Below, one piece after another: positions 4,690 to 42,520 of a stretch of DNA of 64,000 nt. The number at the start of each line of letters is the position of its first letter. Positions within the stretch are counted from its first letter, which is position 1. The stretch comes from Periplaneta americana (lineage: Eukaryota > Arthropoda > Insecta > Blattodea > Blattidae). The notes beneath the pieces were generated by a model. That model made no database searches. It was not told the DNA's origin and saw only the letters and a program-made list of their open reading frames with translations. The DNA is taken from assembly GCF_040183065.1 (NCBI RefSeq), contig NC_091120.1, forward strand, positions 23,286,708 to 23,350,707, written 5' to 3'. A program made the position numbers and the translations under genes.

Positions 4690-4850
4690 TTTATTATTAA
4701 ATTTAATTTCATATTTGCTGTTATATTGCAATTGGCAAAGCTAAGAGTAATTCCATGGAACAAAAGTATTAAAACCAAAAGGCTTCTAGATACATTAATA
4801 TGTGCATAAGCTCTTCAAATGCCATGTTTTCCCCTTAATCAACGGAACGT
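4690..4850 (-). other. 3' UTR of the EGF-like gene with poly(A) signal
   Basis: It follows the TGA stop at 4851-4853 on the minus strand. A canonical AATAAA (plus-strand 4690-4695, tttatt) lies about 155 nt past the stop. The cleavage site would be expected 10-30 nt further on, near 4670. No other gene signal intervenes. The UTR is inferred; the hexamer is seen directly. Confidence 0.55.
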
Positions 4851-4930
4851 TCAGTATATTAACTGAAGACTTGGGTAGAGTATTAGAAGGAAGATAGCTT
4901 CAATATGTGGAACTGTTGTCAAGATTCCAC
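4851..4930 (-). CDS. Exon 4 (last) of the EGF-like gene: hydrophobic tail
   Basis: This is the terminal coding exon of the four-exon gene that starts at 42216. A strong acceptor, an uninterrupted pyrimidine tract ending TTTTTTCAG, precedes base 4930. The first two bases complete the Ser154 codon split by a phase-1 intron (A from exon 3 plus GT). The exon then encodes 25 residues, GILTTVPHIE followed by the apolar AIFLLILYPSLQLIY, and stops at TGA. Small residues (SSG, 153-155), a short polar spacer and a 15-residue apolar end are what a GPI-anchor signal looks like; a single-pass membrane anchor is the alternative. The ORF shows no homology to a transposon. The frame continuing across 7.6 kb of intron is the main reason to join it to exon 3. 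Confidence 0.68.
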
Positions 4931-5028
4931 CTGAAAAAAGAAAAAAATAATCACATATTAAATTATATTTGGTAGGCCTAAATGTACACTTGATATATTT
5001 TTTTGAAATTCCTCGTTTTACTAACAAA

Positions 5029-6003
5029 CTAGCCATACCCGTGCGCTCCGCTGCACCTGTTAGAAATAAATATAAAGTCATTACATAATTAAAATAGGAC
5101 ATTTGATCCAGGGAACATTCGTGTTTGATAGAAGGATAAATCGTTTATTATGTTACTTAATTTAAATTGTATTAAAAAAAATTAAAATGCGATCATTTTG
5201 ATCCAGAGACCACTCATTTGGTCATACAAATTATTTTAGGAAATACAGGAAACGAATGCCTATCAAGTTTTCTGTGCATAAGAATCTATTTTAATCTTAC
5301 CTGTCCTCGATTCACTGAGAAGTTACTGTAATAACATTATAGCATTATGTCCATCTAGAGAAACTACACTTTCCAATGGTGAATTAATAATTAATTATAC
5401 AAATCGGTTAATTTAGCTTCCAATATTACTTCATACAAACACAGAAATATTCTCTGTAGGCTATGTTTCATAGCTTTCGATTGTTGTTGTCCAGGGACCC
5501 TTAAAGACGAAGTCATTTGTTTTTTATTTCATTACACTGCCTTAGATGGCATTGTTATTGTAATTTTGAAACTCATTTATCTCATTAAATATCAGTCCTA
5601 TCAAAATTTTGCATGGAATAAAACTTATCGGAAATTATTTTTAAAGAAACTTTTGTTATGTAATATTTTTCATGAAAATTAATAATAAGGGAGATATTTC
5701 GATTTATTTAATTCAAACCTCCTTATAACTCTCCTTTTAAATGAAGTATTTTGAATGCCATATAGCCTAAACTCTAAGTTACACGAACTTAATTTATATT
5801 CCAATTTTCATATAAATCAGTTCAGCCATTATCACGTGAAAAGGTAACAAACATCTAGACAGACAGACAGACATACAAACAAAAATTTCAAAAAAGCGAT
5901 TTTCGGTTTCAGGGCGGTTAATTATATATGTTAGGACCAATTATTTTTGGAAAATCGAAAATTACCAGAAAAATTTCGACTACAGATTTATTATTAGTAT
6001 AGA
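5029..6003 (-). mobile_element. Non-autonomous Helitron, family 1
   Basis: Read on the minus strand, it starts TCTATACTAATAATAAATC and ends GGGTACGG-like sequence plus CTAG. The flanking bases are A on the 5' side and T on the 3' side, the usual Helitron target. Just before the end is a GC-rich hairpin-like segment, GTGCAGCGGAGCGCAC. It is 975 bp with no Rep/helicase coding sequence, so it would depend on an autonomous partner. There are no inverted repeats or target duplications, as expected of a rolling-circle element. It lies in intron 3 of the host gene, only about 100 bp upstream of exon 4's acceptor. Confidence 0.8.
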
Positions 6004-6820
6004 TTTAATATTGAAGACTGCGTGAGAGAGAAAGAGAGAGAAGAGAAGAGAGATGGAAAGGGGGGGGTGTCCCATATTGTACGAAGTGTTCCGTATTTGA
6101 GGCCTGAAAAAAAACTTGTATGAATAAAAAATCACTGTCTTTAGAAACGTGACATCGCAGTAGTGTGTATAGTTATTGGTACCGGTATAGCAATTGTTGT
6201 TGGATTGTGTGTAGTATGTGTGAAGATGCGAAAAATGTTTCAAACCAAAATGAGTGTTTCTCATGAAATAAAGGGGATGTGTTGCATTAAGAAAATATAA
6301 CATTTATTTAATGTGTAATATTTGTATGACACAATCTTTGAAATTGAAGAGTATGATCGTAAAACGCGTTCAGTCCATTTTTATGAAAGAATTGGACTAG
6401 TTTTTTTTTTATCCATAGAGCGAGTTTTCAAGTGACATGCACAATAACACAAACTTTTAGACAAGCATTGGCGTTGTTTTGGAAGGAAGCACGCTTAAAA
6501 TATTAGTACTTAAGGTCTGTCCAAAACAACTTCCGACCTGACAAATGGCGCCTTTAGCATGTTACCATGGCAACCATTCAAATCAACCAATCACGAGAGA
6601 GGCGTAACCATGGTAACGGGACGGTGTTGCCGTGTCTATGTTTACAAATTGCACGTTAGTACCACGGCCTAGAGGTGAATACAATGTCCGGAATGACTTT
6701 GAGTTGGCTGGTTAGCGCGTGCTTTGTGTGAATTAAAAATATTATTTAGTTGTATTATTGGTGTAGTGTACCGGTATCAATGATTATTCTGTTTCAATTA
6801 TATTACACGTTTTATCTTCG

Positions 6821-7132
6821 TTGTCATTGGTGAAGTGTGTGGCTAGTGTGTGTTTTCTAGTTTCTGCGAGAATTTCTAAACAGGTGAATTGTACAGTGTC
6901 GGAAGGAAGGAAAGGCAGGCGGAGAACAAAGATTATTGCACAAGGTGCCTCGTTAAAGAGTCAAGCGCGAGAGATGGTGTGTTATGTAAGAGAGTATTTT
7001 GAGAGGGAAAAAGATAATGGCGGGGCTCTTTTACCTTCGGCGCAAGTCGTAATGAGAACTGCTGCTTGTGTTAAAATTAATAAGAGCACTGTTATCGATA
7101 TTGGAAAAGAAAAAGGCCGTGCAGATTTTTAA
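6821..7132 (+). pseudogene. Transposase N-terminal (HTH) fragment
   Basis: The frame encodes 103 residues. The segment SLKSQAREMVCYVREYFERE followed by LLPSAQVVMRTAACVKINKS and a TVIDIGKE stretch resembles the N-terminal helix-turn-helix region of insect DDE_3-type (IS630/Tc1-related) transposases. Those continue into a catalytic domain of 200 or more residues, which is missing here. Translation stops at RADF, and AT-rich, microsatellite-containing DNA follows. It sits between the inverted repeats of the element at 6513-7590. The start is arbitrary because the ORF tool may have used a non-AUG codon. Family assignment is from remembered patterns and is moderate at best. Confidence 0.45.
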
Positions 7133-7303
7133 TCATAAATATTTTTACAGTTTACAATAATTTTTGAACGCCTTTCTAACAATATTACATTGAAGAATAC
7201 CGATATTCATAAAAGTAGACGTTTCGTATTAAATTTGAACCTGTTTTTACAGTTTACAGTCCTTTCGACGCTTTTCTAACGGTATTACATTGAAGAATAT
7301 CGG

Positions 7304-7376
<73 letters not shown>
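7304..7376. repeat. (CTA)n microsatellite
   Basis: An uninterrupted trinucleotide run of about 24 units lies inside the deleted transposon. Confidence 0.97.
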
Positions 7377-7377
<1 letters not shown>

Positions 7378-7689
7378 ATAATAACAATAATAGACTAATA
7401 AAAGTAATAATGTACACAAATTTTAATTCCTAGTGTTCAACAAATTGGTTAGAAATGTATACGTTCATGTCAGCCGTTCATTACTGCACTCTATCGGCAG
7501 CGCGCTCGCTTACACGAAAGATGGGCAACATGACAACATTGCTCCCCCTTCTCTGTAAATTGTCAAGTCGGAAGTAGTTTTGGTCAATGTATAGTCTGTG
7601 AGCTTTTCCATTGTGAACACATGCAATTGCACGTGATACAGCACTGTATTCTGCATAAAACGCGGTAAAGAACTTTCTCTAGTAGATTG

Positions 7690-7795
7690 ATATTAGAGGA
7701 GAAAAATTCGCTCCGGCGCCGGGGATCGAACCCGGGTCCTTCATTATACGTACCAAGCGCTCTAACCATTGAGCTACGCCGAAGTTCAATCCACA
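7690..7795 (-). mobile_element. tRNA-derived SINE (tRNA-like head at 7712-7783)
   Basis: On the minus strand, 7783-7712 folds as a tRNA. It has a seven-pair acceptor (TTCGGCG with CGCCGGA, one G-T pair), a GCTC/GAGC D stem and a perfect CCGGG/CCCGG T stem around TTCGATC. The anticodon stem does not pair, so it is not a working tRNA. The tail ends in CTCCTCTAATAT, a motif also found at the end of the SINE at 9490-9690. The A- and B-box regions of a Pol III promoter are retained. Confidence 0.7.
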
Positions 7796-8402
7796 GCACC
7801 GGATCGAATCCCTCTCCTCCAGTGTTTTTCCCTTTGTGGCCTGACTCCCAAGTTGGACATGTATGTTGACATTTATATTAACTGTCGGATACAGGGAGGA
7901 GAGCCATTAATCCTACCCATTGAAGGCTTTAAGGAACCAACCTGGACAAATACCCAATGTCCCATCCCTACCTTCCCATGGTGCAGCTGTTAGTAAGCAT
8001 AATTTTACGAGCTGAACTAAAGGGAGGGGCTACTCATCAATTAGCACTGATCAGCTTGATGAGTTAATGACTGAATTTGGTATAATTTTCCTCTATTCAA
8101 TACCTAATTCCCTCTTTACCCTTTCCTATCCAGTCCTCTGACTGAACTCTTACTTTCTTCGACCCCGACGGCATTAGAGCATTCGAGGCCTAGGGGTTCA
8201 TTTCCCTTTCCTTCCTCCTCTTTCTACTTTTCTGTTCCTAGTGCTGACCTGCTATGGCACTAAAATCGTCCTCCAGTGGCTTAAGGAGGGGAAGCTGGTG
8301 ATCAACAAGATCTCCCAGCTAGGTCCAATGGACCCGTCGACCAACAGCAGGTGTGGTCCTCCAGACATTCTGGGGGTTGAATAATTTCGAGGGAAAAATT
8401 GT

Positions 8403-8473
8403 TCCGGAGCCGGGTATAGAACCCGGGACCTTTGGTTTAACGTACCAACGCTCTACCACTGAGCTACTCGGGA
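8403..8473 (-). tRNA. tRNA-like sequence (arm 1; anticodon position GTT)
   Basis: It is 71 nt and folds fully. The acceptor TCCCGAG/CTCCGGA has one mismatch, the D stem is GCTC/GAGC, the anticodon stem TTGGT/ACCAA pairs perfectly, and the T stem is CCGGG/CCCGG. This arm has one changed base in the T loop (tatagaacc in the plus strand). Position 33 is C instead of the near-universal T, which argues against a functional tRNA-Asn. I read it as the head of a SINE-like unit. Confidence 0.4.
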
Positions 8474-8860
8474 ACTCTAACCGACACCGATCCAATTTTT
8501 CCCTCTATATCCACAGACCTCAAAGTGGGCTGACAACCGTCAAGCAACCAACTTCGAGTGCACACTAACTCCGTGTGACTTAAATTGTGGTTTTCTGTTA
8601 ACGAACAGTGACGTGACGTGTCCCGGGTTCGATACCCGGCTCCGGAACAATTTTTCCCTCGAAATTATTCAAATCAACTTTACAGGGAGTTATACCTGAA
8701 ATCTTGATTTGCATAATACACGTCACTGTTCGTTAACAGAAAACCACAATTTAAGTCACACGGAGTTAGTGTGCACTCGAAGTTGGTTGCTTGACGGTTG
8801 TCAGCCCACTTTGAGGTCTGTGGATATAGAGGGAAAAATTGGATCGGTGTCGGTTAGAGT

Positions 8861-8931
8861 TCCCGAGTAGCTCAGTGGTAGAGCGTTGGTACGTTAAACC
8901 AAAGGTCCCGGGTTCGATACCCGGCTCCGGA
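8861..8931 (+). tRNA. tRNA-like sequence (arm 2; anticodon position GTT)
   Basis: This is the same 71-nt cloverleaf as 8403-8473 in the opposite orientation, with canonical TTCGATA T loop and full anticodon stem. The anticodon read by position is GTT (Asn), but C33 and the single acceptor mismatch are unlike a true tRNA-Asn. No CCA or Pol III terminator pattern decides the case. A decayed or recently captured tRNA gene is the alternative to a SINE head. Confidence 0.42.
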
Positions 8932-9489
8932 ACAATTTTTCCTCGAAATTATTCAAATCAACTTTACAGGGAGTTATACCTGAAATCTTGATTTGCATTC
9001 TGGGGGTTGTGTGTGAGTGAAGTAGCCACCAAAACGTTAAAGTATGGTGTTCACTTAAATCGGCTACAACTTGCCATTTTCACTCCAATATGAAATGAGT
9101 ACCATTAAGGTAAAATTATCCGGAGGTAAAATAGTCCCCCAATCGGATCTCCGGGCGGGGACTACTTTAATGGTACAGAATCAACTAAACTTGCCCATTG
9201 TGCAACTCAAACCAAGAAATGGATTCGGAACACCTCAAAATCTGTGCTTCAGTGGCTGGTCATGATAATATCTTTGAAATATATTGGCGTGCAAGAGGTC
9301 AAATGACTTTATTGTCAAACGCCTGGCATTAGAAAACAACAACATATTAAGTCAACTGCCATTGTACAAGGAGCGCACTCAATTGAGTGACTTGGTGGCC
9401 AGGATTCCGCAGTAATATGCACTGTTGCTCGAAGAACCTACGTAAGGATTAATTTTTGGTCCTACAGAATATATCTGTTATGGTAACAA

Positions 9490-9692
9490 TTTATATTAGA
9501 GGAGATATATTCTGAAGGACACCTACGACCTGTAACCGACAGTTCAAGGTCCCTCCCAGAGGAAGCCACCCAAGGATTATATTGCGTATTAATATTCGTC
9601 GTCCTCGGGCAGGTTTGAATCCACGAACCTCGTATTTGGCGGCAAGCATGGCAGCTACTAACCCACCTAAGACGAGCCCTCCAGTAACTTGA
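9490..9692 (-). mobile_element. tRNA-derived SINE
   Basis: On the minus strand a degenerate tRNA-like head (about 9690-9600, with a GTGGATTCAAACC T-arm) is followed by roughly 100 bp of unrelated body. The end is TATCTCCTCTAATATAAATT. That tail matches the tail of the SINE at 7690-7795, which suggests both families use the same LINE reverse transcriptase. Confidence 0.6.
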
Positions 9693-9699
9693 AGGCATG

Positions 9700-10343
9700 T
9701 TTAAAGAAGGCGAAGAATGTTTATTTAGTTAGGGCTGCGAATTTTTCTAAGCACAAATTGTGTGCCTTTAGTTGTGAATTTGCACCTGGGTTTGGGTCTT
9801 ATTCTCTGCAATGTTATATCCTGGCAAGTAAAAATTAAAACATTTCGTGACATGATTTTGATTTATTATCCTTGTCTCTTAAGGTCATTTAGCACGATTA
9901 GAACTTCTTGGGCCCAACTTTATATGCAGTTTCCGTGTCTCTAAGACATGCAAAAGCGCACGCAATCTCCAACTTTTAGATCGAATTGAAACTGCTGCGA
10001 ACTGGGTTATTGTCACAGACTGTCGCGAAACTGAATTGAATTTTATCAGCCTCTAGTCACGCTTTTTCATCGTGACTCGGTAATTCCGACGAAGCTCGTT
10101 TCTGTCGTGAATAAATTATGATGCACTTTGCCTATATAACATATAAATGATAAAGGTATCCCCTGTATACGCCATGAAGGCGCTTGGGGGGGGGGGCATC
10201 AAGGTAGAACTGCTTTCAACCCAGGACCTTCCATTCCGTAGCCAGTTACAGTACAACCTTGAATATCCGTTTTAAAGGATGCGACTGAGGGAATGGTTAC
10301 CCTAGCTTTACCAAGATTGAGCAGAAATTGCCCACTCTTTTTA
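9700..10343. other. Intronic DNA, nothing recognised
   Basis: It contains a poly-G run near 10190 and no recognisable coding or repeat-family sequence. Confidence 0.45.
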
Positions 10344-10652
10344 TCATCTACATTTTTTTTGCAATATATTAAATCTTGACTGTTTTTTCCCTTGAGATTG
10401 TGTTATCAAATTTTGTTTGTTGAAGTCTAAGTAAGTAGATTTAATAAATCTTTTCACAGAGTAATACGTAGATTTAGTAACAGGTCTGTAAGTAGCAGTG
10501 CTGTCTTTTGCTAAAGCATCCACATTCTCGTTTCCCAGGATTCCACAATGGGATGGTATCCATTGGAATACAATTCTTTTATTGAGTGTTATTAATTGAG
10601 AGAGCACTTTAGTTATTTCTGCTGTTTGAGATGAAATTGTGTGTCTATTGGA
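10344..10652 (-). pseudogene. LINE RNase H domain fragment
   Basis: The minus-strand frame contains VFQWIPSHCGILGNENVDAL followed by AKDST, the C-terminal RNase HI signature of I- and R1-like or other RNase H-bearing LINEs. WIPSHxGIxGNExVDxLA includes the last catalytic His/Asp region. Reading back in the same frame, the similarity continues to about 10650 (SSQTAEITKVLSQL) with no start codon, so the fragment is 5'-truncated. It lacks the reverse transcriptase and the catalytic DED residues upstream. It probably inserted as a truncated retrotransposition product. Confidence 0.72.
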
Positions 10653-10656
10653 GTGG

Positions 10657-10756
10657 TTAAATGGCCAGTTGTAACCGATTTAAGTGAACACCATATTTTA
10701 ACGTTTTGGTGGCTACTTCATCCATACACAACCCCCAGAATGTCTGGAGGACCACG
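10657..10756 (-). repeat. Repeat K homologue, uninterrupted
   Basis: This reverse-complement copy of the distal part of repeat K (8340-8379 joined to 9010-9075) lacks the foldback element. It serves as the paralogous empty site for that insertion. Confidence 0.85.
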
Positions 10757-10836
10757 TATGTATGTATGTATGTATGTATGTATGTATGTATGTATGTATG
10801 TATGTATGTATGTATGTATGTATGTACGTACGTACG
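10757..10836. repeat. (ATGT)n microsatellite, segment 1
   Basis: A tetranucleotide run of about 18 units turns into ACGT variants just before a SINE. The same run resumes at 11100-11124 and 12219-12322. Confidence 0.95.
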
Positions 10837-10840
10837 TATG

Positions 10841-11098
10841 TCCACACCTGTGGAGTAACGGTCAGCGCGTCTGGCCGCGAAACCAGGTGGCCCGGGTTCG
10901 AATCCCGGTCGGGGCAAGTTACCTGGTCGAGGTTTTTCCGGGGTTTTCCCTCAACCAAATACGAGCAAATGCTGGGTAAATTCCGGTGCTGGACCCCGGA
11001 CTCATTTCACCGGCATTATCACCTTCATATCATTCAGACGCTAAATAACCTAGATGTTGATAAAGCGTTGTAAAATAACCCAATAAAATAAAATAAAA
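10841..11098 (+). mobile_element. tRNA-derived SINE, family S1
   Basis: The tRNA-like head contains GGTTCGAATCC (B box) at 10895-10905, and a conserved roughly 150-bp body follows. The A-rich tail is AATAAAATAAAATAAAA. A second copy in reverse orientation is at 62307-62567. Both flanks are ATGT microsatellite, so the target duplication cannot be separated from the repeat. It has no coding capacity; mobility would need a LINE in trans. Confidence 0.88.
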
Positions 11099-11099
11099 A

Positions 11100-11124
11100 A
11101 TGTATGTATGTATGTATGTATGTA
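11100..11124. repeat. (ATGT)n microsatellite, segment 2
   Basis: A short tetranucleotide run is squeezed between SINE S1 and the TIR element that starts at 11125. Confidence 0.95.
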
Positions 11125-12218
11125 CAGGGACATCATTTTATTTTTACTTCAATTTTTATTGTACCTGAGTTTTTGAATGTACTTCACTCCCACCCCTACT
11201 AATGAAGTTCAACCGTCCTCCAAGAACCATGGCCGCATATACAGTCATAGTATACTTACGGTCATAGTAAACAGTACGTTCCAAAAATATGTTCGCGTTT
11301 TCCAGTGACGAAAGAGCTTTCAATATTGCATCATTTTCCATTTGCCTACGTCGCATCCCGGTTTCCCTCACCTGCTTCTATTCGCCTCTCTGTAAATGCT
11401 AGAATAGCTCTTTTCTGGGAACATTAATTTCTGTTAGGAATTGGGCGTCTACGTAATATTCACCCATACAGTTGTTTAAAATGACTTAAATAAAAGGGCC
11501 TCGTTAAGTAATTAACTGTCACGTGATTTCCTCCCATTCTACGACGCTGCGACGTAACCACTTGGACGGACAGTAGATAGCATGTCTGAGTAATTTTATC
11601 TTTTCGGATCGGGCAGAAGTGAAGATTGAATTTACAGTACGTAAGGTCTTTTTTATAGAGTAGGTACAGAATTATTTCAACATGAGTTACTGATACGAAG
11701 TACGAACCTGGTAACTGGAATTACGTACAATAGTCTATAGTGCGATAATATTCACATTAGAACTAAAGCCTGTATCGAAATGAACGGCCACCATTTTCAA
11801 AAATGTGTTTAAATATCCATATTATGATTATTTTTCAATTTAACTTCATTCTCTATATTGTACGCTAATGTGTTGTAGACAGTATAATATACACTGCATA
11901 ATGAATACGTGCGCATGGAAAGGTCAGTTCGTGGGTAAAAACACTTATTGTTAATACAGTACTGTATTTTGATTAAACAGAAACTTAATGAAAATTATCA
12001 AACTCAAAATCACGATATTTCCTAGTTTACGTAAATGGATGAACTACTTTTCTTCCCTCCTATACCTAGTGAAGTGATTTGTTTGTATATTACGCCAGTA
12101 TCATCGAACTCCAGTCGTGGAAGGGGGTAGCAAACGTGTTTCCGGTTCTTAATCGTTGATCCAAAGGTATAGCCAGGTTAATATAAGAAATGTTAGTAAA
12201 AATAAAATGATGTCCCTG
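11125..12218. mobile_element. TA-flanked TIR element family C, copy 1
   Basis: It begins CAGGGACATCATTTTATTTT and ends with the exact inverted sequence. TA stands immediately outside both ends. It is 1,094 bp with no transposase frame. Related copies are at 15626-16699 (complete, about 1,074 bp) and 61882-64000 (interrupted). The TA flank in all three suggests Tc1/mariner-type (possibly pogo-like) mobilisation. It is inserted in the ATGT microsatellite within intron 3. Confidence 0.88.
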
Positions 12219-12322
12219 TATGTATGTATGTATGTATGTATGTATGTATGTATGTATGTATGTATGTATGTATGTATGTATGTATGTATGTATGTATGTA
12301 TGTATGTATGTATGTATGTATG
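12219..12322. repeat. (ATGT)n microsatellite, segment 3
   Basis: About 26 tetranucleotide units follow directly on the TIR element. The long HTYI-repeat open frames here are translation of the microsatellite, not genes. Confidence 0.96.
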
Positions 12323-12389
12323 TTATGTAATGTAGTGTGCTTCCATACATAAGCTAAGTGTAAATATCTATATGTACTTAATACTCAAC

Positions 12390-12506
12390 CAAGCTCGGAA
12401 TAGGATGCACTGGTGTCGCTACTGTAGCGAGCAAGAGGGCTGACGGCCGGATTGCAAATGTATGAGAATCGTAGTTCCCAAACTCACCGATCCTATTCCG
12501 AGCTTG
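12390..12506. repeat. 117-bp inverted-repeat element
   Basis: Ends CAAGCTCGGAATAGGAT and ATCCTATTCCGAGCTTG are perfect 17-bp inverted repeats around an 83-bp interior. It is a very small MITE-like element. Its right end is 41 bp from the donor of exon 3 (12552). Confidence 0.8.
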
Positions 12507-12552
12507 ACTGCATAATGTATGCCAGCTGCTGGCTGCTTAGTCATCTACTCAC

Positions 12553-12684
12553 TGCTGCATTCGTAGTCTTCTTCCATGAAGCCCTCCTTACATTCACACA
12601 GCTTCTTAGCATTAGTGGTGTTCCCGGCCTTACAAACCGCATCCGGTATGCAGTCTTCGTCCATACTGCATATTGAATGAAGGC
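12553..12684 (-). CDS. Exon 3 of the EGF-like gene: cysteine module 2
   Basis: This 132-nt exon is bounded by a pyrimidine-rich acceptor (TTTTATCCTACAG) and a strong donor (GTGAGT). It is a symmetric phase 1-1 exon: the first two bases finish Gly110, and the last base begins Ser154. It encodes residues 111-153 with cysteines at 115, 121, 127, 139, 141 and 152, that is C-x5-C-x5-C-x11-C-x-C-x10-C. The core reads CSMDEDCIPDAVC and later CECKEGF. This is the six-cysteine spacing of EGF-like/EB modules, extracellular disulfide-bonded folds. An NTT glycosylation sequon is at 131. The tight cysteine pattern, the flanking splice sites and the frame match to its neighbours make this a real exon rather than chance. 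Confidence 0.82.
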
Positions 12685-12796
12685 CTGTAGGATAAAAATG
12701 AGATACAAATGCTATTTATTTCAGAAATATTAATTTTTTAAATTAATTTTTTGTTTGTAATATTATTAACATACTGGGTGTTCATTTCAAAATGAG

Positions 12797-13270
12797 TCAT
12801 GACGTCACTCGCTGGGCTGCTGATCCGGAGCTGCGTTCGGGCTTGGGTTGGATCCCCCTTTGGACTTTGGTTTCTTCGGAGGTTTTCCCCAGCCGTGGGA
12901 CTGAAGCCGGATGGTCTATGGCGAGTCCTTGGCATCAACCCCTTTGATTTGATTACCTGGTTGGGTTTTTCCGAGGTTTCCCCCACCGAAAAGGCAAATG
13001 CCGGGTAATATTTTGGCGAATCCTCGGACCTCATCTCATCTCACTACATCTCGCCAAAATGTAAAAAAAATGTAAAAAAAAATGTAAAAAAAATTGTACA
13101 AAATTGTAAAAATTGTAGAAAATTACTAAATTGTAAAACTATAAAAATTTGTAAAAATTGTAATTGTAATATTGTAAAATGTTGACATGTTCCACATCTT
13201 AAAGCTTCATTGCTCCTGTAAGATCTATGGAATAAAATAAATGAATGAATGAATGAATGAATGAATGAAT
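12797..13270 (+). mobile_element. SINE-like element with A-rich and GAAT tails
   Basis: A GC-richer segment with a degenerate B-box-like GGGTTGGATCCC near 12845 is followed by a conserved-looking body. Then come TGTAAAAAA repeats and a (GAAT)n run at 13241-13270. The structure resembles a tRNA-derived SINE. The target duplication is not evident, and there is no second copy in the window to confirm the borders. Confidence 0.5.
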
Positions 13271-13930
13271 GTTGTGAGTCAGCGATTTGAAGCGAGTTTC
13301 AGCTTTCGTGTCCGAGAAGTTGCCTATTAATCAAGGCGTTCAATCTGAACTTGAGAACGTGTACGGTATAACTTGAACGTCGTAGCGACAGATGGCGGTC
13401 TGTAAAGTCTGTGTGCTACCATAACCTCTTTCGAACTGTTTTGCGCGGGCAAGTTGTACGCAGGGTATTTGTTATCATCCGTTGCATACCGCAACATTCT
13501 ACAACCCAAATCAAATGCTCCGTGTCCATGTTGACCGTCGAAGTTAATGTCAATAAATACGTAAGTAATCGTCTTAACCCTCTCGCCATATCCCGACAGT
13601 AAGAAAAAAACTCACCTCAGTACATGTTTCCAAACAGTTCACATTCCTGTCACTACCGGCGTTACCGCACGTATCGGTACGTACTTCCAGAGTCCGTGGG
13701 TATCCACGGACTCTGCGTACTTCAGAATGAACGCCGTACTTGCTAGGCAACTTCTCTCGCATTTAGATAGGTAATACGCCTCTGCGGGAGTGTAGGAAGA
13801 TTGAATTCTCTAGGCTCACTGGCTAGCCACATGACGATATATAGCGAGCCATGACACACTTTGAACTGAACACGCAGTATTATGTTAGTATTCTGTTCTT
13901 CAACTTTTTGTTAAATTTTAACTGCTTGTA
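13271..13930. other. Intronic DNA with a hairpin and a candidate splice donor
   Basis: An 11-bp perfect stem (AGAGTCCGTGG / CCACGGACTCT, 13689-13714) has a 4-base loop. On the minus strand a frame from 13762 runs into a consensus-like donor (CTGAG|GTGAGT at 13616/13615). Neither is tied to a known gene; see the findings. Confidence 0.4.
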
Positions 13931-13935
13931 TACTT

Positions 13936-13995
13936 TATGACCTGGTAGAGTGTAAGAGAAGGCCCTATGGCCTTAACTCTGCCAGTATAAATAAA

Positions 13996-14048
<53 letters not shown>

Positions 14049-14060
14049 TATTATTATTAT
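13936..14060 (+). mobile_element. LINE 3' end with AAGGCC hairpin, copy a
   Basis: It contains the hairpin AAGGCCCTATGGCCTT (13959-13974), the shared AACTCTGCCAG motif and a tail of AAAT and AAT repeats. The same arrangement ends the LINE fragments near 33693, 49420, 52245, 52755 (minus) and 59378 (minus). Only the 3' UTR is recognisable here. Confidence 0.6.
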
Positions 14061-14240
14061 TATTTGAAAGAAATGACTCTTTCCTTATTGATTACGTAAG
14101 TTACTTTAGTTAATTATAATTATTTTTTGTACTCCAGCATTATAAAGTGTTTATCGATAGTAAAAATCGTTCTTAATATGCCACATTATTGTGCCAGTGC
14201 CGAAAAATATTGCCATGCCAACTAAAACGTCATGATTTCT

Positions 14241-14479
14241 CGTGGCTAACGAGAAAAACAAGCAAGACACGATTCGGAGTCACGTGACTATCATGGTCTA
14301 GTCATGGCCATCTTTACAATAGCCTAATATAAATACATGTTCAGAGTTATAAAAAACAAAGGAATAGCTATATTAAACTCATGTTAAACGTGCATTTATA
14401 TATAAACTTGTTCAATGTTGGCCATGTTATGACTAAGAATGTGACGTCGCGCCGTAGCCTGTCTTTCTCGTTAGCCACG
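14241..14479. mobile_element. 239-bp MITE with 9-bp target duplication
   Basis: Inverted ends CGTGGCTAACGAGAAA are flanked by a perfect 9-bp direct repeat, ATGATTTCT (14232-14240 and 14480-14488). A 9-bp duplication points to Mutator-like (MULE) mobilisation. There is no coding sequence. Confidence 0.85.
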
Positions 14480-14612
14480 ATGATTTCTATTATGACAACA
14501 TAACGTGTGCCATAAAGTTAATACTATGAAACGATTTGCCGTGTTATAATATTTAATACGTCATCATTGTCATAGCATCCCCTTCTATCAAACTATACCT
14601 ATCATTACAAAA

Positions 14613-31452: not shown

Positions 31453-31453
<1 letters not shown>

Positions 31454-32038: not shown

Positions 32039-32039
<1 letters not shown>

Positions 32040-32977
32040 CAGTGCATGCTGAAACATGACGATATCTAATACAATCAGTTTACCAAATCTGTATCTTGAT
32101 TTGAAATCATTATCCCTATAAAACTCAATAGAGTTTTGTGCATGTCTAATAATACGTAGTGGAACATGGGCAGCTCCATTATTTCCCAGAATGCCCTCAA
32201 TTTTCTCGGCAAGTTAAACAATTTCCCAAATATTAGCAATTTTCCTTATGTCCACGACGGAAAGTCAGTCAAAGTCAAAGTCTAGATTTTCGGCAACGTC
32301 GAAGTAAAGTCATTATTGAAGTTTACTTTCGACAAAATGTCGACCATGAATAGGAAAATGGCGACTTCGTGCTTTCCAAAGCCTCATTTATGAACACGAT
32401 TCTTAATATCTACCGTTTGTTTCTAATTGTAAGTCCGTATGTTGCTGTCTTTGTATGACTGAATAAACATCTATATATAGCTAATTTGAACTGGTAATGG
32501 AAATTATGAGAAAACGGCTGAACGGATTTTATTGAATGACCCGTCATTTTGAAGGATTTTCAGAAAAATAGTAACTTTCAGTGAAGCCTTAATTTTCCTA
32601 CATATTTTTTCTATTTTCTAAAATTCATCTTTCGTCAGTTTTGATAACTAATTGCATTTCAGAATAAAACAAAACACACACTACAATAAACAATAGACTA
32701 TTACACGAAGGCCATGACATGCAGGATTGCTGACATATTTAGAGTTCAAATTCAATTGATTATTAAAAACTTCAAGACTTACTAAAAATAATTTACAGGT
32801 CTGATTCTGCAGAGTGTAATTTTTTGAGTACAGCTGTGTAGTGGATACTAAAATATACAAAACTTGAGGTGGTTTGATGACATTATTACCATTAGAAAGT
32901 AAATATTATTATAGTTAATGCCATGATGTGACTATTTTTCATTAATTATACATATTAATGCTATATTGCTATATGAT

Positions 32978-33245
32978 CCAGGCGCTTGCGATGGGCAGGG
33001 CGTGTAGCACGTATGGGCGAATCCAGAAATGCATATAGAGTGTTAGTTGGGAGACCGGAGGGAAAAAGACCTTTGGGGAGGCCAAGACATAGATGGGAGG
33101 ATAATATTAAAATGGATTTGAGGGAGGAGGGATATGATGATAGAGACTGGATTAAGCTTGCACAGGATAGGAACCGATGGCGGGCTTATGTGAGGGCGGA
33201 AATGAACCTTCGGGTTCCTTAAAAGCCATTTGTAAGTAAGTAAGT
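32978..33245 (+). mobile_element. LINE family L1 3' end
   Basis: It encodes [20 protein letters not shown], then [19 protein letters not shown], to the natural stop after NLRVP. The short UTR and (AAGT)n tail common to the family follow. Severe 5' truncation leaves 78 codons. No clear target duplication is seen. Confidence 0.87.
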
Positions 33246-33505
33246 ATATTGATGATATGAAAGTGAACGTTTTAGAATTATATAAGTAGATGTAGAGAAT
33301 ATCTTAAATTAGTTCTTGATTTCTATAATTTATTGTGGCGGCTATTATACAAAAAACTACAAAACTTCCGTAAGATAATAATATTGTTATTAAAAATGAA
33401 ATATATTCATAGTTATTAATCAAGTCTTTTTCATACACTTAATGGCGGTGTCGTGTAGATACTTATATGTCATTCTCTTCAGTATTGGCTCGATAGAGCG
33501 TAAAG

Positions 33506-33714
33506 TTTAATTCTGCTACCCAGTTTATTTCAGTGTTTAATTAATAGTTCATAGTATTTTGTTGTTTAATTCGTAAATAACTCTTGTATACATGTAACTC
33601 TCATCTAAATCAAATTGTTGAATTCTTTGTAAGTTCATGCATATGTATATACACTTTTTGCTGGTTGTGTGGAAGAGAAGGCCTTACGGCCTTAACTCTG
33701 CCAGCTAAAATAAA

Positions 33715-33755
<41 letters not shown>
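33506..33755 (+). mobile_element. LINE family L2 3' UTR with AAGGCC hairpin
   Basis: Only the 3' UTR is present, ending AAGGCCTTACGGCCTT (33678-33693), AACTCTGCCAGC and a (TTA)n tail. It is nearly identical to the UTR at 49240-49500 and to the complement of 59320-59550. Confidence 0.85.
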
Positions 33756-34229
33756 AAGACCAAAATGTATTACTTACTGATAAAATAAGAGGCCTAGAAA
33801 ATTTTGTAGTCTCCAGATCATTTCAGCACAGCATAAAATGATTTTACCCTCTACATTTCAAGCTCTACATGCAGCAGCTATACCAAGATGCTATGTCTAT
33901 TGTTCGAAAGCATAGCAAACCTGACTTTTTTTTTTAACTTTCACCTACAATCCGCAATGACCTGAAATAGCTGTTGCTTTATTCCCACATGAGAAACCCA
34001 CTGATCGTCCTGACATTGTTCCTTGCGTTTTCGCGTTGAAATTCAAAAACTGAAGGTGGATAGGTTCAAGAAAAAGTATTTGGCATAAAAAACCATTCAG
34101 AGGTTTCATTATTATGGAAGCAAATAACTTTCAAAATGTCTGGTATTCTTAATTGAAAATTAATCTGAAACATTTTTATTTGAACGTCTAATGAACTTAG
34201 TTTGCTATATTTGCTGCACAAGCCATTAG

Positions 34230-35037
34230 TTATATTAAAAAGAGTCGGAAATAAAAGACAGTCTTGTTTCATTTCTTTGTTTATTGTAACCGTGACAACA
34301 GAAGAATAGTGTTTAACTTGTGTTGTAAGATACGGATGATTTAGAGTGACATTGTAAACTTAATAAGTAATTAATGGACAGACTTTATTGCTTGAGAGAG
34401 AACTCTAGTCACGTTACTTTTTTCTGCTAATAGTGCTGTGATGTATGCACAGACAGAAACACATTTGGCATGCATAAAGCAAACATTGTACATACAAAAG
34501 GTCTACATATGCCCAAGTGCATTATTTTTGTATTTAGTCGAATGTTTGTTGCTTATTTAAATCATGTAGGTTTTCATAGACTAACGATAATAAGAAATTA
34601 AGATACGAGTTTGAGACAAAGCACTGACAAGCAGTAAGTGTATCTGCATTAGAGTAATGAGAATAATATAAATTACTGAGGTCGTGTTACAAATTCGTTC
34701 CAACCACTAACAACGCCTGAAAACACCGCACTCCCGCATTACCGCTGCGACAGAGAAGTTGCCGAACAAGCTTGGGTACGATATGGAATTTATTTACAAA
34801 ACGTTAAACACAAGGTCATTCAAACCAAAGGTTTTGTAAACAAAACTATACAATATAAAACATTCTTATCGATAGTACGTTGCCATTTCTCTGGAAGTTT
34901 ATGAATTGCTTTCTTCCAAAATCTGGCGGTTTTCTGGTTGCGGTTCCGGACAATTGGCCACAGAAAATTGATAATGGGACAATTCGCCACAGATAGTTTG
35001 TCACAAATAGATAATTTTCTACAAATAGACAATTTGC
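34230..35037. other. Intronic DNA, nothing recognised
   Basis: The stretch 34940-35037 has a degenerate internal repeat of GACAAATTG-like units next to the FLYWCH pseudogene. No gene is seen. Confidence 0.4.
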
Positions 35038-35567
35038 CACATCGTCCATTATCCAAAAATGGGACCGTAACAATTTATTTAAATGTGAATTAGTGGCAAA
35101 TATGATAACTTTCACGTTGTCCTCCGGTTCAAAATACAACAACCACCTTTCTCCTTCTACAGTCTTGGTGTATCTGTCGGCTATAACGTTCAGTTCGTCA
35201 ATATTTCTCGGTTCAGGTGGTAGATGCAGCTTCCTGGCATGGCGCACAGTTTTTTAATAGATGGTTTCTTCGGTAGATTCACATTGGCTTCGCTTGCAAT
35301 ACGCTGTAACTCATTTTGAGTAATGACAGATGTTGGATCTCGGGAAGTCCCCTCCCTTGCCTTCAAGTTCTCTACACATTCCTTTGCCTTAATCCTTCCC
35401 CAGTCTGCCGAATGATTCTTGTGTTCAGACGGTTCTTTGACGACACTGCTTCCATCTTCTGATAACGTGACTGTTGCATTACACCCGCCACGCATGTCAC
35501 ATCGCCAAACAACTCCATTCTTACTCGTATTTTCTCTAAGTCTCGTGTACATAGACCATAGTTGGGC
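35038..35567 (-). pseudogene. FLYWCH zinc finger - MULE transposase fragment, frameshifted
   Basis: The upstream part (35552-35255) encodes MYTRLRENTSKNGVVWRCDM, then CNATVTL and a HKNHSAD segment. This is the FLYWCH finger pattern with its W-x-C, C and H-x2-H ligands. About 50 residues on, in another frame, the protein continues as ELNVIADRYTKTVEGERWLL then VKVIIFATNSHLNKLLRSHF and WIMD, the N-terminal part of MULE-type transposase-like proteins. The frame change falls at a run of six A (plus-strand T run 35250-35255), so a one-base indel there is the lesion. The catalytic DDE core is missing after WIMDD. It is either a dead Mutator-like transposon or a decayed domesticated gene. Confidence 0.72.
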
Positions 35568-35599
35568 AACTCAGAATACAACTATGTACCAATGCTTAT

Positions 35600-36872
35600 T
35601 ATTTTTTAACACTTGTAAGTAAATAATTTCAAACACGTATGTCAATATTTATTTAATATACACTTACAAGAGTCCGAAGCCAAAATTTCACTTAATCTGG
35701 ATGAATAATATTGAATATACAAAGAAAAATGTGACTAGTGTGGACCATAGTTAGGGGAAACTACGGTACATTTGTATCACAATAGTTTAATTTATTTGTA
35801 TATTTTAATCTAAAAAAAATCTATTTTTAATACTATGTGTAAACTTCTAGATTTCACTAGACTTTTATTACTAAATATTTGGTAAATCTGTTAGCAACTT
35901 TCCTGTGATAATTGAAACTACGCTGGTAGTTTACCTTTGTTAATGATTAGTTTCGGCTTGATTTTGGCCATCTTCTAATGCGGTTCTTGATTGTTTCTGT
36001 TTTTATTATGGTACTTTGGTGCTGGATACGTTTATAATCGGCAGTGTTGTGTCAGATAGGGTATGTATTCTGAAATTTAATTGTGTTGAGGATATGTTGT
36101 GAATGTGTATCTGTATATCTAGTACGGTTCTAGTATATTTAATTTCTGTTTTTTCGGTCCAAAATGTAGGATCACCAACACCAACCACAACTATAGCAAC
36201 ATAGAAACAGACATGTAAATCCTACATATTGAACCGAAAAGTCAGAAAAGAAATACACTAAAACAGTACGAAATATCGACAGCCCAGTTAAAAGGGAAAC
36301 AACTTAAAATTTGAAGTTTTGAGGAATCTGAACTTTAAAAGTTTTATATTGCTGTGAAAAATTCAATTAACACACTCTATTTAGATACTTATAGTATATA
36401 TAAAACATCGTTAACAGAAATTTGAGTAATTTCAAAGATCTTTTGATTTTTCACAGCAATATAAAGCTTTAAAATGCAGGTTTCTCTAAACTTTAAATTT
36501 TGAGTTGATTTCCTTTTGAACTGTGCCGTTGATACCCATACATACAAAAACATACTACAACATATCGTTGGTTGACTTTTAAAACCTCGTAACCGTAATC
36601 GCATTCGAGGAAATTGTACAACAGAGCGAAATAATTTCTTATTCCTTTTATACTGAAGCTAACAACTGTTATTAATTTGTTATTTATAAAATCTAGAAGC
36701 ATTTGCAGACTTACTAGATGTTATCAGCATGCGCATTTTGAAAATATACACAGAGTTAGACTTTCGGAAAAAATTGGACTTACAGGGTTTTAGAAGTAAG
36801 CCGACGATATCTTCAACATGAGTTAATTAGAGTGTGGTCCCAGAACTCGCTGCCCGTTTGGCCATTTTTATG

Positions 36873-36925
<53 letters not shown>

Positions 36926-37140
36926 TGTTTACGATCTCTATCATTATATTTTAAGCATCATTTCTGCCAAAACAGTGCCAATCCCTGTCTAAAAGTTTGT
37001 GTTATTGTGCATGTCACTTGAAAACTCGCTCAGTCCGTAGATCGGTGGACAAAAAAACTAGCCAGTCCTTTCCTAAAATGTACTAAACGCGTTTTGGGAT
37101 CACACTCTTAAATTGCATTTCAGAACGTGCACCTTTTTCA
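35600..37140. other. AT-rich intronic DNA with degenerate inverted repeats
   Basis: Diverged inverted arms lie at about 36275-36365 and 36445-36535, with a smaller pair near 36143-36175 and 36216-36250. A (TA)n run is at 36877-36920. No gene is seen. Confidence 0.5.
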
Positions 37141-37146
37141 CACTGC

Positions 37147-38284
37147 ACTTACTTACTTACAAATGGTTTTTAAGGAACCCGAAGGTTCATTGCCGCCCTC
37201 ACATAAGCCCGCCATCGGTCCCTATCCTGTGCAAGATTAATCCAGTCTCTATCATCATATCCCACCTCCCTCAAATCCATTTTAATATTATCCTCCCATC
37301 TACGTCTCGGCCTCCCCAAAGGTCTTTTTCCCTCCGGTCTCCCAACTAACACTCTATATGCATTTCTGGATTCGCCCATACGTGCTACATGCCCTGCCCA
37401 TCTCAAACGTCTGGATTTAATGTTCCTAATTATGTCAGGTGAAGGATACAATGCGTGCAGTTCTGCGTTGTGTAACTTTCTCCATTCTCCTGTAACTTCA
37501 TCCCTCTTAGCGCCAAATATTTTCCTAAGCACCTTATTCTCAAACACCCTTAATATCTGTTCCTCTCTCAGAGTGAGAGTCCAAGTTTCACATCCATAAA
37601 GAACAACCGGTAATATAACTGTTTTATAAATTCTAACTTTCAGATTTTTTGACAGCAGACTAGATGATAAAAGCTTCTCAACCGAATAATAACAGGCATT
37701 TCCCATATTTATTCTGTGTTTAATTTCCTCCCGAGTGTCATTTATATTTGTTACTGTTGCTCCAAGATATTTGAATTTTTCCACCCCTTCGAAGGATAAA
37801 TCTCCAATTTTTATATTTCCATTTCGTACAATATTCTGGTCACGAGACATAATCATATACTTTATCTTTTCGGGATTTACTTCCAAACCGATCGCTTTAC
37901 TTGCTTTAAGTAAAATTTCCGTGTTTTCCCTAATCGTTTGTGGATTTTCTCCTAACATATTCACGTCATCCGCATAGACAAGAAGCTGATGTAACCCGTT
38001 CAATTCCAAACCCTGCCTGTTATCCTGAACTTTCCTAATGGCATATTCTAAAGCGAAGTTAAAAAGTAAAGGTGATAGTGCATCTCCCTGCTTTAGCCCG
38101 CAGTGAATTGGAAAAGCATCAGATAGGAACTGACCTATACGGACTCTGCTGTATGTTTCACTTAGACACATTTTAATTAATCGAACTAGTTTCTTGGGAA
38201 TACCAAATTCAATAGGAATATCATATAATACTTCCCTCTTAACAGAGTCATATGCCTTTTTGAAATCTATGAATAACTGCACTA
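37147..38284 (-). mobile_element. LINE family L1, 5'-truncated copy with reverse transcriptase
   Basis: This is the longest L1 copy. It begins in the middle of the reverse transcriptase and runs to the 3' end, finishing in a short UTR and (AAGT)n tail at 37147. The 5' break lies at about 38284. In orientation and position it is in intron 1 of the host gene, same strand. Confidence 0.9.
37170..38282 (-). pseudogene. LINE L1 reverse transcriptase C-terminal 370 codons
   Basis: This is an uninterrupted frame for the 3' part of a non-LTR retrotransposon ORF2. It contains motif A ([12 protein letters not shown], residues 3-14), motif B ([19 protein letters not shown], 61-79) and the catalytic YADD box (103-106). 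The thumb/connection follows with [10 protein letters not shown], then [12 protein letters not shown], and the C-terminal [15 protein letters not shown] and [10 protein letters not shown] signatures. The finger region and endonuclease are missing, so it cannot act alone. The first codon is GTG, at the truncation point, not a true start. The frame has no stop in 370 codons, so the insertion is young or recently functional. The clade is not certain. Confidence 0.9.
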
Positions 38285-38391
38285 CCGATCATAAATGCAC
38301 TCACCACCAAGATATCATAAGAAGAAACCGGAAACAAGGAAGGATCTTAATAGAAAAATATGAAGATGACCGAAATCGGCACAGATGCATT

Positions 38392-38766
38392 GTAGGGGCC
38401 AATCTCCTTATTGGGTGAATGATATGAATGCTACTATCGGTATGTATTGTTGTTATAATCGACATAAAATATGTTGTCACTTCTAAATTAACAGTCAGTT
38501 TTATATTGTTGACTTGTAGCCTACTTCAAAATGGAAATAACGGCAGTAATAGTCAAATATATTTTCCCTGGACCAAAAATATAATACAAACTGACTAAAA
38601 TTACATCAGTAGTAACAAACTATTAAAATTTGTTTATTTAATTTTTTAATTTGGTAGCATTTAATGCTTATCGAATATCGAATGCTAAAAACGCTAATCG
38701 AACCATTACTTCCGCTGATCTTGTTTTACGTATAATGTGTGATGGGTGGGCCCTATAATGCATCTG
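38392..38766. mobile_element. TIR element family M, copy 3 (complete, inverted)
   Basis: It is the reverse-orientation homologue of 2051-2436, with ends CAGATGCATTGTAGGGGCC and its inverted copy (one G lost). It is 375 bp with no coding sequence. Confidence 0.88.
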
Positions 38767-38932
38767 TTCCAATTTACCAGATCTTAAATGTGTATATTAG
38801 CGTATCATAATGCGATCCTGTATAAACAGCTATGTCACAGTCAGTTGTTTGGTTCATAAAAATATAAAAAACGGCTCTCCTAAGGTCACTTTATAAAATA
38901 TAATGTCTTCTTCAGAGACTATAGAAACAATG

Positions 38933-38969
<37 letters not shown>

Positions 38970-39560
38970 TATAATTATTTGTTGTTCAGATACATCTTTT
39001 ACTTCCGTATAAATTTATAGCGATTTAAACATTTTTCGCATTTCGAGATTTTCGTCACTGATATAAATAATAACTTGGGAATATAATAATACACTTTGGT
39101 AATGATTTAGAGAAGTAATAAAAATACCGCGTTTGAACTTATTTACAGCTGTCGTTTACCACTTGCGGTCAACCAGTTTGACACAGCTGGAAAATAAGTA
39201 ATCTCGACTAGTTCCACTGAATTATTTAAGGCCAAGGACTGCATAATATGAAGTACCAACTTAATGAACATAAATTTAATACTTTTAATATATCTGTAAT
39301 TTTTCTGGAGACAGATTTTGTAAATTTGTTTCTTCTCTTTATTGCAGTGTTAATTAGTTCTAAGAGAAAAGAAGATAATAATATGTAGTAACAAGAAAAT
39401 TAAGGAATCTACATATCTATGAAATGCAATAGTAGGAAACTATTGTATTAATAAACATATGATCCTACAACGAAATGGTAGATTAGTGAAAAATACTTTT
39501 AGTATCAGATTTTTTTCTTTTGTGGTTTTTCGGTTGTGCCCGTACTTTGACACTGGGATA
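38767..39560. other. AT-rich intronic DNA
   Basis: It holds a (TA)n run (38934-38966) and otherwise nothing I recognise. Confidence 0.45.
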
Positions 39561-40160
39561 GTTACTTACTTATGGCTTTTAAGGAACCCGGAGGTTCATT
39601 GCCGCCCTCACATTAGCCCGCCATCGGTCCCTATCCTGAGCAAGATTAATCCAGTCCCTACCATCGTATCCCACCTCCCTCAAATCTATTTTAATATTAT
39701 CCTCCAATCTACGTCTCGACCTCCCCGAAGGTCTTTTTTTTCGTACGGCCTCCCGACTAACACTCTATATGCATTCCTGGATTCGCCCATACGTGCTACA
39801 TGCCGTGCCCATCTCAAACGTCTGGATTTAATGTTTCTAATTATGCCAGGTAAAGAATAAAATGCATGCAGTTCTGCGTTGTGTAACTTTCTCCATTTTC
39901 TTGTAACTTCATCCCCCTTAGCCCCAAATATTTACCTAATCACCTTATTCTCAAATATCCTTAACATCTGTTCCTCTCTCAAAGTGACAGTCCAAGTTTC
40001 ACAACCATACAGAACAATCGGTAATATAATTGTTTTATAAATTCTAACTTTCAGATTTTTTGAGAGAAAACTGGATGATAAAAGCTTCTCAGCCGAATAA
40101 TTACAATCATTTCCCATATTTATTCTGCGTTTAATTTCCTCCCGAGTTGATTTATATTTG
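39561..40160 (-). mobile_element. LINE family L1 3' fragment, decayed
   Basis: It is the same 3' half of L1 as 37147-37750, ending at the EEIKRRINM region. The frame is broken (only 39932-40117 stays open, reading [20 protein letters not shown]), and many substitutions make it older than the 37-38 kb copy. Confidence 0.85.
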
Positions 40161-41030
40161 ACACTAGATAATTTCGAATTAGGCCACGATTGTCATAGAA
40201 GTAAACAAACATGCCTGATCTAATAAAGTAATGTCACTTTAAACTATTGAAGACATTCGGAAACGATTCAGTGATAGAGCAGTGATGATAGAATGGATTA
40301 ACAAGGACACCAAAATAGTTGGACTTTTTACATTGCTTATTTTTAAAGAATTCACAATTTTTGGAAAACTGATCCTGTCTTCTTCTTCAGATGAAGAAAG
40401 GGGCGGTGAAAAGGTAGGCGTACTCGGTCAGTCGAGTAGAATAGGCGTTTGTAATGACCCCAATGAGTAGGCATCCCTTCACACCCTTTTTTCACCTGAA
40501 GACGAAGATAGAACCATTCTTCGAAACGTGAATTTATTTTAAAATAAGCAATAGAACAAATTCAATCTTACAACGCACCATTGCTCCCTCCCTCCTTTAG
40601 AAGAACCAAAATACGGTACTTGCAGAAAATCTATCTCATGTAAGCTTAACACAAATTTCACAGGGCTTTCGGGGTTCGAATCCCGGTATTCTAATTACAA
40701 ACTATAAGGTGTCTTATTTACGAATTGGTCTTGTACTTTGAGTAAGGATCAATTGTTTAACAATACAATGGCTGTTTTAACACATTTTCAATGCACCGCC
40801 GAAAATGGATAGCCTACATTCATCCATCCAGTCAGTTTTAGATGTAAATAATCCTCGACTCGAATGTTAGAAGCATACGAAGGATTTTAAAATATAATCA
40901 TGACCATTCTTAACACTGCATTACATAACACTGGTTTCGATTGTGCATGCACGTTATGGCTTGTGAAAATTACATGCAGTTTAGAAGTGGCAATTTTCTA
41001 ATATTTTGGCTTTTCAAAAATAAGAAAAAG
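40161..41030. other. Intronic DNA, nothing firmly recognised
   Basis: A lone B-box-like GGTTCGAATCC near 40675 may be a SINE relic. No other feature is seen. Confidence 0.4.
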
Positions 41031-41034
41031 TTAA

Positions 41035-41911
41035 GGGGAGAGGATGGTATTTTTTTTAACTTTTTTCCTATTTGGTGTAAAATATTAATTTTTGTATGTA
41101 GAGAGCTCATAGCTGTAGAAAATCACCAAAAATAAATATTTTGAAAAAAAAAAATTATTTGAGGTTCCAGATTTGAAAAAAAATATACCCAATGCAGGAT
41201 TTTACTAAAACCGATATATCTAAACCATTTTTAAAGATAGATTCATCCAGTTTTTTGCAATGTACTTGCAAAAGCATGCTCTACAAACTGCCTGTAACAG
41301 AATTTTGATATTTGTCCCCACGTTTGTAAAATAAACAATTAAAATTAATAACACTTTTCTGATTTCCTTTCTTGCAAACAAACGGACGTAGTTTTGAAAT
41401 GAAATCAATTAACACAATTCTGTTACAGAGAAAAGTTTCCTAATAGTCTAAAGAATGTGTGTTCTAAATTTCTTGCATGTATCTTTAATAGTTCAGAAGT
41501 TATATCCATTTTTGTCTGGCAATGTAGCAAAGAAATGAAGTTACCGTGAACCGATAAAAGGGGGCGAGAGATTTAAAAATCCATAGCGCAGGAAGTTTAA
41601 AAATGGCGTCTCAACATCCGATAAGGGCACAAATACCCACGAAATGTTATGCAATGCATTCCACACATATCAAAGGGTATTTTAAAGAAAAAAAAAATTG
41701 AAAATTCAGTTTACCGGAAACAACAATAAAAGGGGGGCGAGTGATTTAAAAACCCATAACGCAGGAAGTTTAAAAATGACGTCTCAACATCTGATAAGGG
41801 CACAAATACCCACAAAATATTATGCTATGCATTCCACACATATTACGGAGTATTTTAAAGAATTTTTTTTTAATTTACTCATTTTTCACCAAAAAATACC
41901 ATCCTCTCCCC
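41035..41911. mobile_element. 877-bp TTAA-flanked element (piggyBac-like MITE)
   Basis: Inverted ends GGGGAGAGGATGGTATTTTT are each bordered by TTAA (41031-41034 and 41912-41915), the piggyBac target. Inside, a segment of about 145 bp is repeated in tandem (about 41560-41700 and 41730-41870, both with GCAGGAAGTTTAAAAATG). No transposase is present. It lies in intron 1, 124 bp from exon 1. Confidence 0.82.
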
Positions 41912-42035
41912 TTAAGTATTAAATTCCTGACAGATCCGGCTTGATGTACCCCAAGCATCGTATCGTCGAATGCTGATTTTCACAATGTCTTCTTCCTTTA
42001 CACATAACATAATACAGATATCCACTGAGACTTAC

Positions 42036-42216
42036 GTTGGACAGTTTGATGTGTGTTATTTTTGGTAGTTGTACTAGAACTCCCAAAAGTAGTCAAGCGA
42101 GCTGTTTTCTGATTAGATAGCCCGATGCAATCCGCCTGGTAGTAGACCATGAACAAGAAGAAGACCGTCGGAATAACTACAGTGTGCAGGAGGCTAACGG
42201 ATGTCGCGCTACTCAT
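42036..42216 (-). CDS. Exon 1 of the EGF-like gene: signal peptide and linker
   Basis: The start ATG (42216-42214) is in a good context (GACGCCATGA). Upstream in-frame sequence opens only with non-AUG codons, so this Met is preferred. The exon encodes residues 1-60. A polar start, SSATSVSLLH, precedes an apolar core, TVVIPTVFFLFMVYYQ, and a likely signal-peptidase site after ADC or ADCIG. A Ser/Thr-rich stretch (TTFGSSSTTT, 42-51) and an NNT sequon at 53 follow. It ends in a consensus donor, CAAC|GTAAGT, in phase 1, so the next codon is C+CA (Pro61) from exon 2. The whole spliced CDS is 540 nt, 180 codons with the stop. The product should be a small secreted or GPI-anchored surface protein. 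A name cannot be given. Confidence 0.78.
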
Positions 42217-42520
42217 GGCGTCGACTACAGCAGAAGACGGTGGACACAACAACGTTAACAGAGTAACAAACACCGCGTATAAAAAAATGGATCTGGGGGT
42301 GAGAGACGGGAGGTGTAGTAGTGTACGGGGTGGAGGTTAGGGAGCAACTGTTCTGCAACCACTTGTATCAGACTTGAGCGCGGTGGGAGGGGAAAGGGGC
42401 GCCAAAACAAATCAGAAACCCCAAGAGGTCAACTTCTGAGGTTCGGAGAAGTGGAACGTGATGAAGAGGTAGGGGCGATGTCGGAGAAGTGCGCTGCCTT
42501 TGTGACATGCGCATGCGCAA
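42217..42520 (-). promoter_or_regulatory. CpG-rich 5' region of the EGF-like gene
   Basis: The 300 bp before the ATG are far richer in G+C and CpG than the surroundings (GCGCGGTGGGAGGGG, GGCGCC and GCGCATGCGC are examples). This is what a germline-unmethylated promoter and 5' UTR would look like. I see no unambiguous TATA box in the correct orientation, so the start of transcription is not placed. A tandem repeat array begins at its distal edge. Confidence 0.5.

Follow-up and report, generated by a model that had tools for sequence, protein, structure and literature searches.

The sosie gene and the Periplaneta locus

In the passages that concern it, the Drosophila gene sosie is described as acting in oogenesis, where it has been connected with border-cell and follicle-cell migration, with cortical beta-H-spectrin and with actin (PMC6657171, PMC4852512, PMC6998227). 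Beta-H-spectrin is mislocalised in sosie mutants, with the architecture of the follicular epithelium kept (PMC4852512), and loss of the gene leaves the cytoplasmic actin networks poorly organised (PMC6998227). Elsewhere, a study of the honey-bee brain tabulates sosie among the changed genes marked 'Down' (PMC12714137), and the gene is reported as abundant in maturing males of Anopheles (PMC10556010).

The locus considered here lies in a window, i.e., the whole stretch of DNA that was analysed, of 64,000 nucleotides from Periplaneta americana. A preliminary description had proposed a gene of four minus-strand exons with GT/AG borders and phase-1 joins, and recomputing the coordinates and frames returned the same structure. 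The coding part of exon 1 (42036..42216, 181 nt, codons 1-61) carries the signal peptide region, an LTTFG motif and an N-glycosylation sequon at N53; exon 2 (30475..30621, 147 nt) and exon 3 (12553..12684, 132 nt), both phase 1-1, each carry one six-cysteine module, C66-C104 and C115-C152 respectively; and the coding part of exon 4 (4851..4930, 80 nt) supplies most of a small-residue site, a spacer, the hydrophobic C-terminus and the stop codon. The splice donors are GTAAGT, GTAACA and GTGAGT and the acceptors end in TTTCCAG, CCTACAG and TTTTCAG. Together the exons make up 540 nt (181+147+132+80), or 180 codons, giving 179 amino acids and a stop, with phase 1 at every internal junction. The AATAAA poly(A) signal that had been noted after the tail was read from the sequence at 4695-4690 on the minus strand (4690..4695), 155 nt 3' of the stop codon.

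Among 5.8 billion proteins searched, the product has an identical counterpart (179/179 residues) under the name 'uncharacterized protein sosie [Periplaneta americana]' (hereafter P0001), leaving no difference at the protein level. The gene model is established at this level, and the annotated protein bears out both that the four coding exons belong to one gene and that no further coding exon was missed. As P0001 is a record from the same chromosome as the window, independent support comes from the relatives in other species which align end to end, among them full-length proteins on contigs of 1.1-1.2 kb from the source 'lgn' (P0002, P0004). Within the 3.23-Gb genome the product matches this locus only (12 candidates scored, four matches, all here); one of the four matches runs beyond exon 3 through stops. 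We therefore regard the four exons as the Periplaneta americana orthologue of the insect gene sosie, present at one locus, with a probability of roughly 0.93. The coding sequence is already in the public annotation and the gene is a known one. The suggestion that the protein may be uncharacterised is not supported: it corresponds to a gene with a published oogenesis mutant phenotype in Drosophila. The main value of the result is that reading raw sequence, without tools, recovered exactly a coding sequence whose exons are scattered across 37 kb.

Repeats and tRNA genes in and around the gene

The introns had been described as filled with transposons, a claim that was checked in part (10 of the 45 listed frames were scanned): retroelement and transposon frames lie in introns 1 and 2. 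Intron 1 (30622..42035, minus strand, 11.4 kb) contains a frame (37173-38288) encoding a reverse transcriptase domain, and intron 2 (12685..30474, minus strand, 17.8 kb) a mariner-type transposase frame at 29210-30127 together with an inverted pair of tRNA-Ser genes. An inverted pair of tRNA-Asn genes and one tRNA-Arg gene are found in intron 3 (4931..12552, minus strand, 7.6 kb).

The tRNA pairs form palindromes. The one at 8392-8942, in intron 3, has 224-nt arms with 100% complementarity, each enclosing one of two divergently oriented tRNA-Asn(gtt) genes, and at 18091-18574, in intron 2, two tRNA-Ser(gga) genes lie inside 214-nt arms with 98% complementarity. A genome search with the tRNA-Asn palindrome gave 241 matches, the best 40 of 504 candidates being scored; parts of it recur in other places, such as C13, in tandem with a spacing of about 285 bp, many matches fall on C20 between 1.01 and 1.28 Mb, and the full 551-bp palindrome has matches of 90-92% on C15, C12, C5 and C6. 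The single tRNA-Arg(acg) gene occupies 7710-7783 on the minus strand, and the segment 7693-7781 shows about 80-84% similarity to portions of each of the four tRNA-Asn loci with which it was compared. A literature search, of a kind that misses most subscription papers, returned nothing on tandem tRNA genes in the Periplaneta americana genome.

Directly upstream of exon 1, a 732-bp unit is repeated in tandem (42520..46876) as three full and two partial copies, with 92-99% identity to the first copy. Full-length matches to this unit were found at this locus only (best 40 of 2,321 candidates scored), and matches elsewhere are confined to an internal repeat of about 120-150 bp. Two of the units are followed by an 844-bp element; its ends are CAGTGGCGTAGC, and the 8-bp sequence GTACCTGA looks like a target duplication. 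The element has at least 39 dispersed copies at 97-98% (best 40 of 4,663 candidates scored), and it looks as if the element was duplicated along with the 732-bp unit. We take it to resemble a non-autonomous hAT element. Further out in the window are a satellite at 54338-57003 (139-bp unit, 19 copies, 96% matches) and a long ATATG pentanucleotide array of about 151 copies at 51372-52137.

Cysteine modules, relatives and membrane anchor

Exons of EGF/EB modules are commonly symmetric and phase 1-1. The two six-cysteine modules that had been proposed are present, one set per exon, with cysteines at 66, 72, 80, 91, 93 and 104 in exon 2 and at 115, 121, 127, 139, 141 and 152 in exon 3; an extra cysteine, C30, lies in the signal-peptide region outside both sets. 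The signal-peptide-like start and the GPI-like hydrophobic tail were likewise found in the product, and the three sequons were located at N53, N77 and N131. Against P0001, the Pfam EB family PF01683 scores 24.0 bits, which is borderline with respect to its cut-off of 24.3; the match covers residues 93-152 with eight cysteines and spans the border of exons 2 and 3. In alignment A2, which holds 53 of the 120 listed relatives, PF01683 matches 31 of the 53 at E<=0.01. In the structure model the modules reach a pLDDT of 88-94, averaged in ten-residue blocks from 61 to 150, and a C-terminal helix occupies residues 162-178 of 179. Structure comparison gave weak matches only, among them knottins and Pfs25, and since nearly all of these fall between residues 105 and 156 they hardly bear on module 1. 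A sequence search of the PDB with P0001 returned no match; the sole PDB match of the 53-row profile, NELL1, had an E value of 0.21 and was set aside.

The search gave 172 relatives at E<=1, and the comparison covers the 120 that were listed. They span at least seven insect orders, and 20 of the 120 have 'sosie' in their name, most others being called uncharacterised or having no name. None of the 120 has lost any of the 12 module cysteines, and the LTTFG motif between the signal peptide and the modules, which is present in P0001, is nearly as constant (L41 in 115/120, T42 in 117/120, T43, F44 and G45 in 118/120 each). Small residues follow the last cysteine at +1 and +2 in 116/120. As far as comparison of proteins can establish them, orthology, conservation and a shared architecture with the sosie family are demonstrated. 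As a DNA pattern the LTTFG motif is uninformative as a marker, having eight matches in the window, one of them exon 1, against 8.41 expected.

The two termite orthologues, Zootermopsis LOC110840525 and Cryptotermes LOC111862054, are 51-52% identical to the Periplaneta protein over 93-99% of the query, and both share with it the 12 module cysteines as well as a hydrophobic tail that is short; in the termites, however, the loop of module 2 is longer, and the Cryptotermes tail ends in one Arg, unlike that of Periplaneta. Drosophila melanogaster Sosie is absent by name from the listed relatives and D. hydei and D. bipectinata served as stand-ins. The D. hydei protein (P0113, a 45-member cluster), standing for Drosophila sosie (sie), has the LTTFG motif, the 12 module cysteines, an SG pair after the last cysteine and a hydrophobic stretch at the C-terminus in common with Periplaneta, but ends in MRKHF, placing basic residues past the hydrophobic stretch where Periplaneta has none.

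It is in this tail that the mode of membrane attachment is to be sought. After C152, P0001 continues with SSG (153-155), a nine-residue spacer to 164 and an uncharged run at 165-179, which consists of 15 mostly hydrophobic residues and reaches the last residue with nothing beyond. Judged by eye, the Periplaneta tail has the layout of a predicted GPI signal, with a small-residue site, a short spacer and an uncharged hydrophobic end. In the cockroach and the termites the anchor would thus be a GPI lipid, attached on cleavage near residues 153-155, and the mature protein would have neither a transmembrane helix nor a cytoplasmic tail. Our tentative reading, which we place a little short of an even chance, is that Sosie was ancestrally GPI-anchored in insects, that the transmembrane form of flies is either a dipteran change or a misread GPI signal, and that spectrin is reached through a membrane partner.

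There is also the possibility, itself somewhat doubtful, that the helix of the last exon stays in the membrane for good and leaves next to nothing in the cytoplasm, which is how the Drosophila protein is described. Work by Urwyler and colleagues from 2012 is said to give fly Sosie an extracellular EGF-like domain and a predicted transmembrane segment; its localisation to the plasma membrane reportedly depends on two basic residues on the cytoplasmic side. Such a description speaks against GPI in flies. Lysines and arginines following the longest uncharged run were counted in the 117 tails of at least 20 residues (the shorter P0045, P0056 and P0091 were left out and P0089 kept), with orders assigned from organism names and 30 full-tail rows carrying no name. 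None was found in 12 tails, one in 69 and at least two in 36; in Diptera, 16 of 22 rows have at least two, which is as the transmembrane reading would expect, although one of these is P0089, an isoform lacking the hydrophobic tail. The modelled helix at 162-178 also suits a transmembrane segment, though it is compatible with the GPI reading too. On the other hand, P0001 has no basic residues beyond its uncharged run, and so no basic pair of the Drosophila type, and the counts for the three named Blattodea are 0, 0 and 1 (the two termites 0 and 1). From these counts (36/117 with at least two; Blattodea 0, 0 and 1) the basic pair reported in flies is no feature of the family. The small-residue pair, which would stand at the omega site in 116/120 rows, further argues against a transmembrane helix, but it may be structural.

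The GPI reading should nevertheless be considered with some caution, as in 105 of the 117 full tails one or more K/R follow the longest uncharged run, and a single K/R, common as it is there, is less typical of a textbook GPI signal. A literature search that misses most subscription papers found nothing linking sosie to 'GPI-anchored' or 'glycosylphosphatidylinositol'. Four of the 120 rows (P0045, P0056, P0089 and P0091) are predicted isoforms or models without the hydrophobic tail and may be secreted forms. In Periplaneta, read-through past exon 3 meets a stop after two more codons and would yield a hypothetical unanchored form.

Other readings of the exons and the role of Sosie

The preliminary description had suggested an immune-type protein. 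That the exons encode such an uncharacterised immune protein, or a different secreted protein of EGF/EB type with no relation to sosie, is very improbable: the pair of cysteine modules and the architecture of a surface protein would suit it, and the involvement of the cockroach protein with beta-H-spectrin is drawn from fly genetics, but the product exactly matches a protein named sosie, occupies one locus in this genome and belongs to a family conserved across insects. The immune label itself is without support given this 179/179 identity, and the honey-bee and Anopheles passages on sosie state no immune role (PMC12714137, PMC10556010).

A scan of both strands of the window was carried out for stop-free segments of 100-200 nt in phase 1-1, bounded by AG/GT and having the same cysteine spacing. 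The minus strand gave five nested candidates at two places, which are exons 2 and 3 of sosie, whilst none was found on the plus strand of the window or in five Markov-1 shuffles. When segments with at least six cysteines in any spacing were counted, the real sequence gave 23 (minus) and 29 (plus) against one across the five shuffles; the shuffles thus understate the cysteine-rich background, for which reason the plus strand serves as the more reliable control. The scan also makes it less likely that another exon of this type in the window was overlooked. That splice-like sites merely aligned by chance, with no gene present, has a negligible probability, no point having been found in its favour and the idea being already refuted by conservation across relatives. 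The identical public protein and the end-to-end relatives in other species also speak against it, as does the fact that neither the plus strand nor the shuffles gave a segment with this spacing.

The product of Periplaneta sosie is accordingly best pictured as a surface protein, predicted to be secreted, that bears three sequons and has a disulphide-rich EGF/EB-like module in each of its two symmetric phase-1 exons; the last exon would hold it at the outside of the plasma membrane. There it would support the organisation of cortical beta-H-spectrin and F-actin in migrating follicle cells and epithelia; by orthology, and with fly genetics as the basis, cockroach Sosie most likely works as it does in Drosophila. 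With a GPI anchor, any link from Sosie to spectrin must run via a partner protein. If Sosie is indeed GPI-linked, it would be a protein believed to act on the cell cortex yet having no cytoplasmic part of its own, and in need of a partner.
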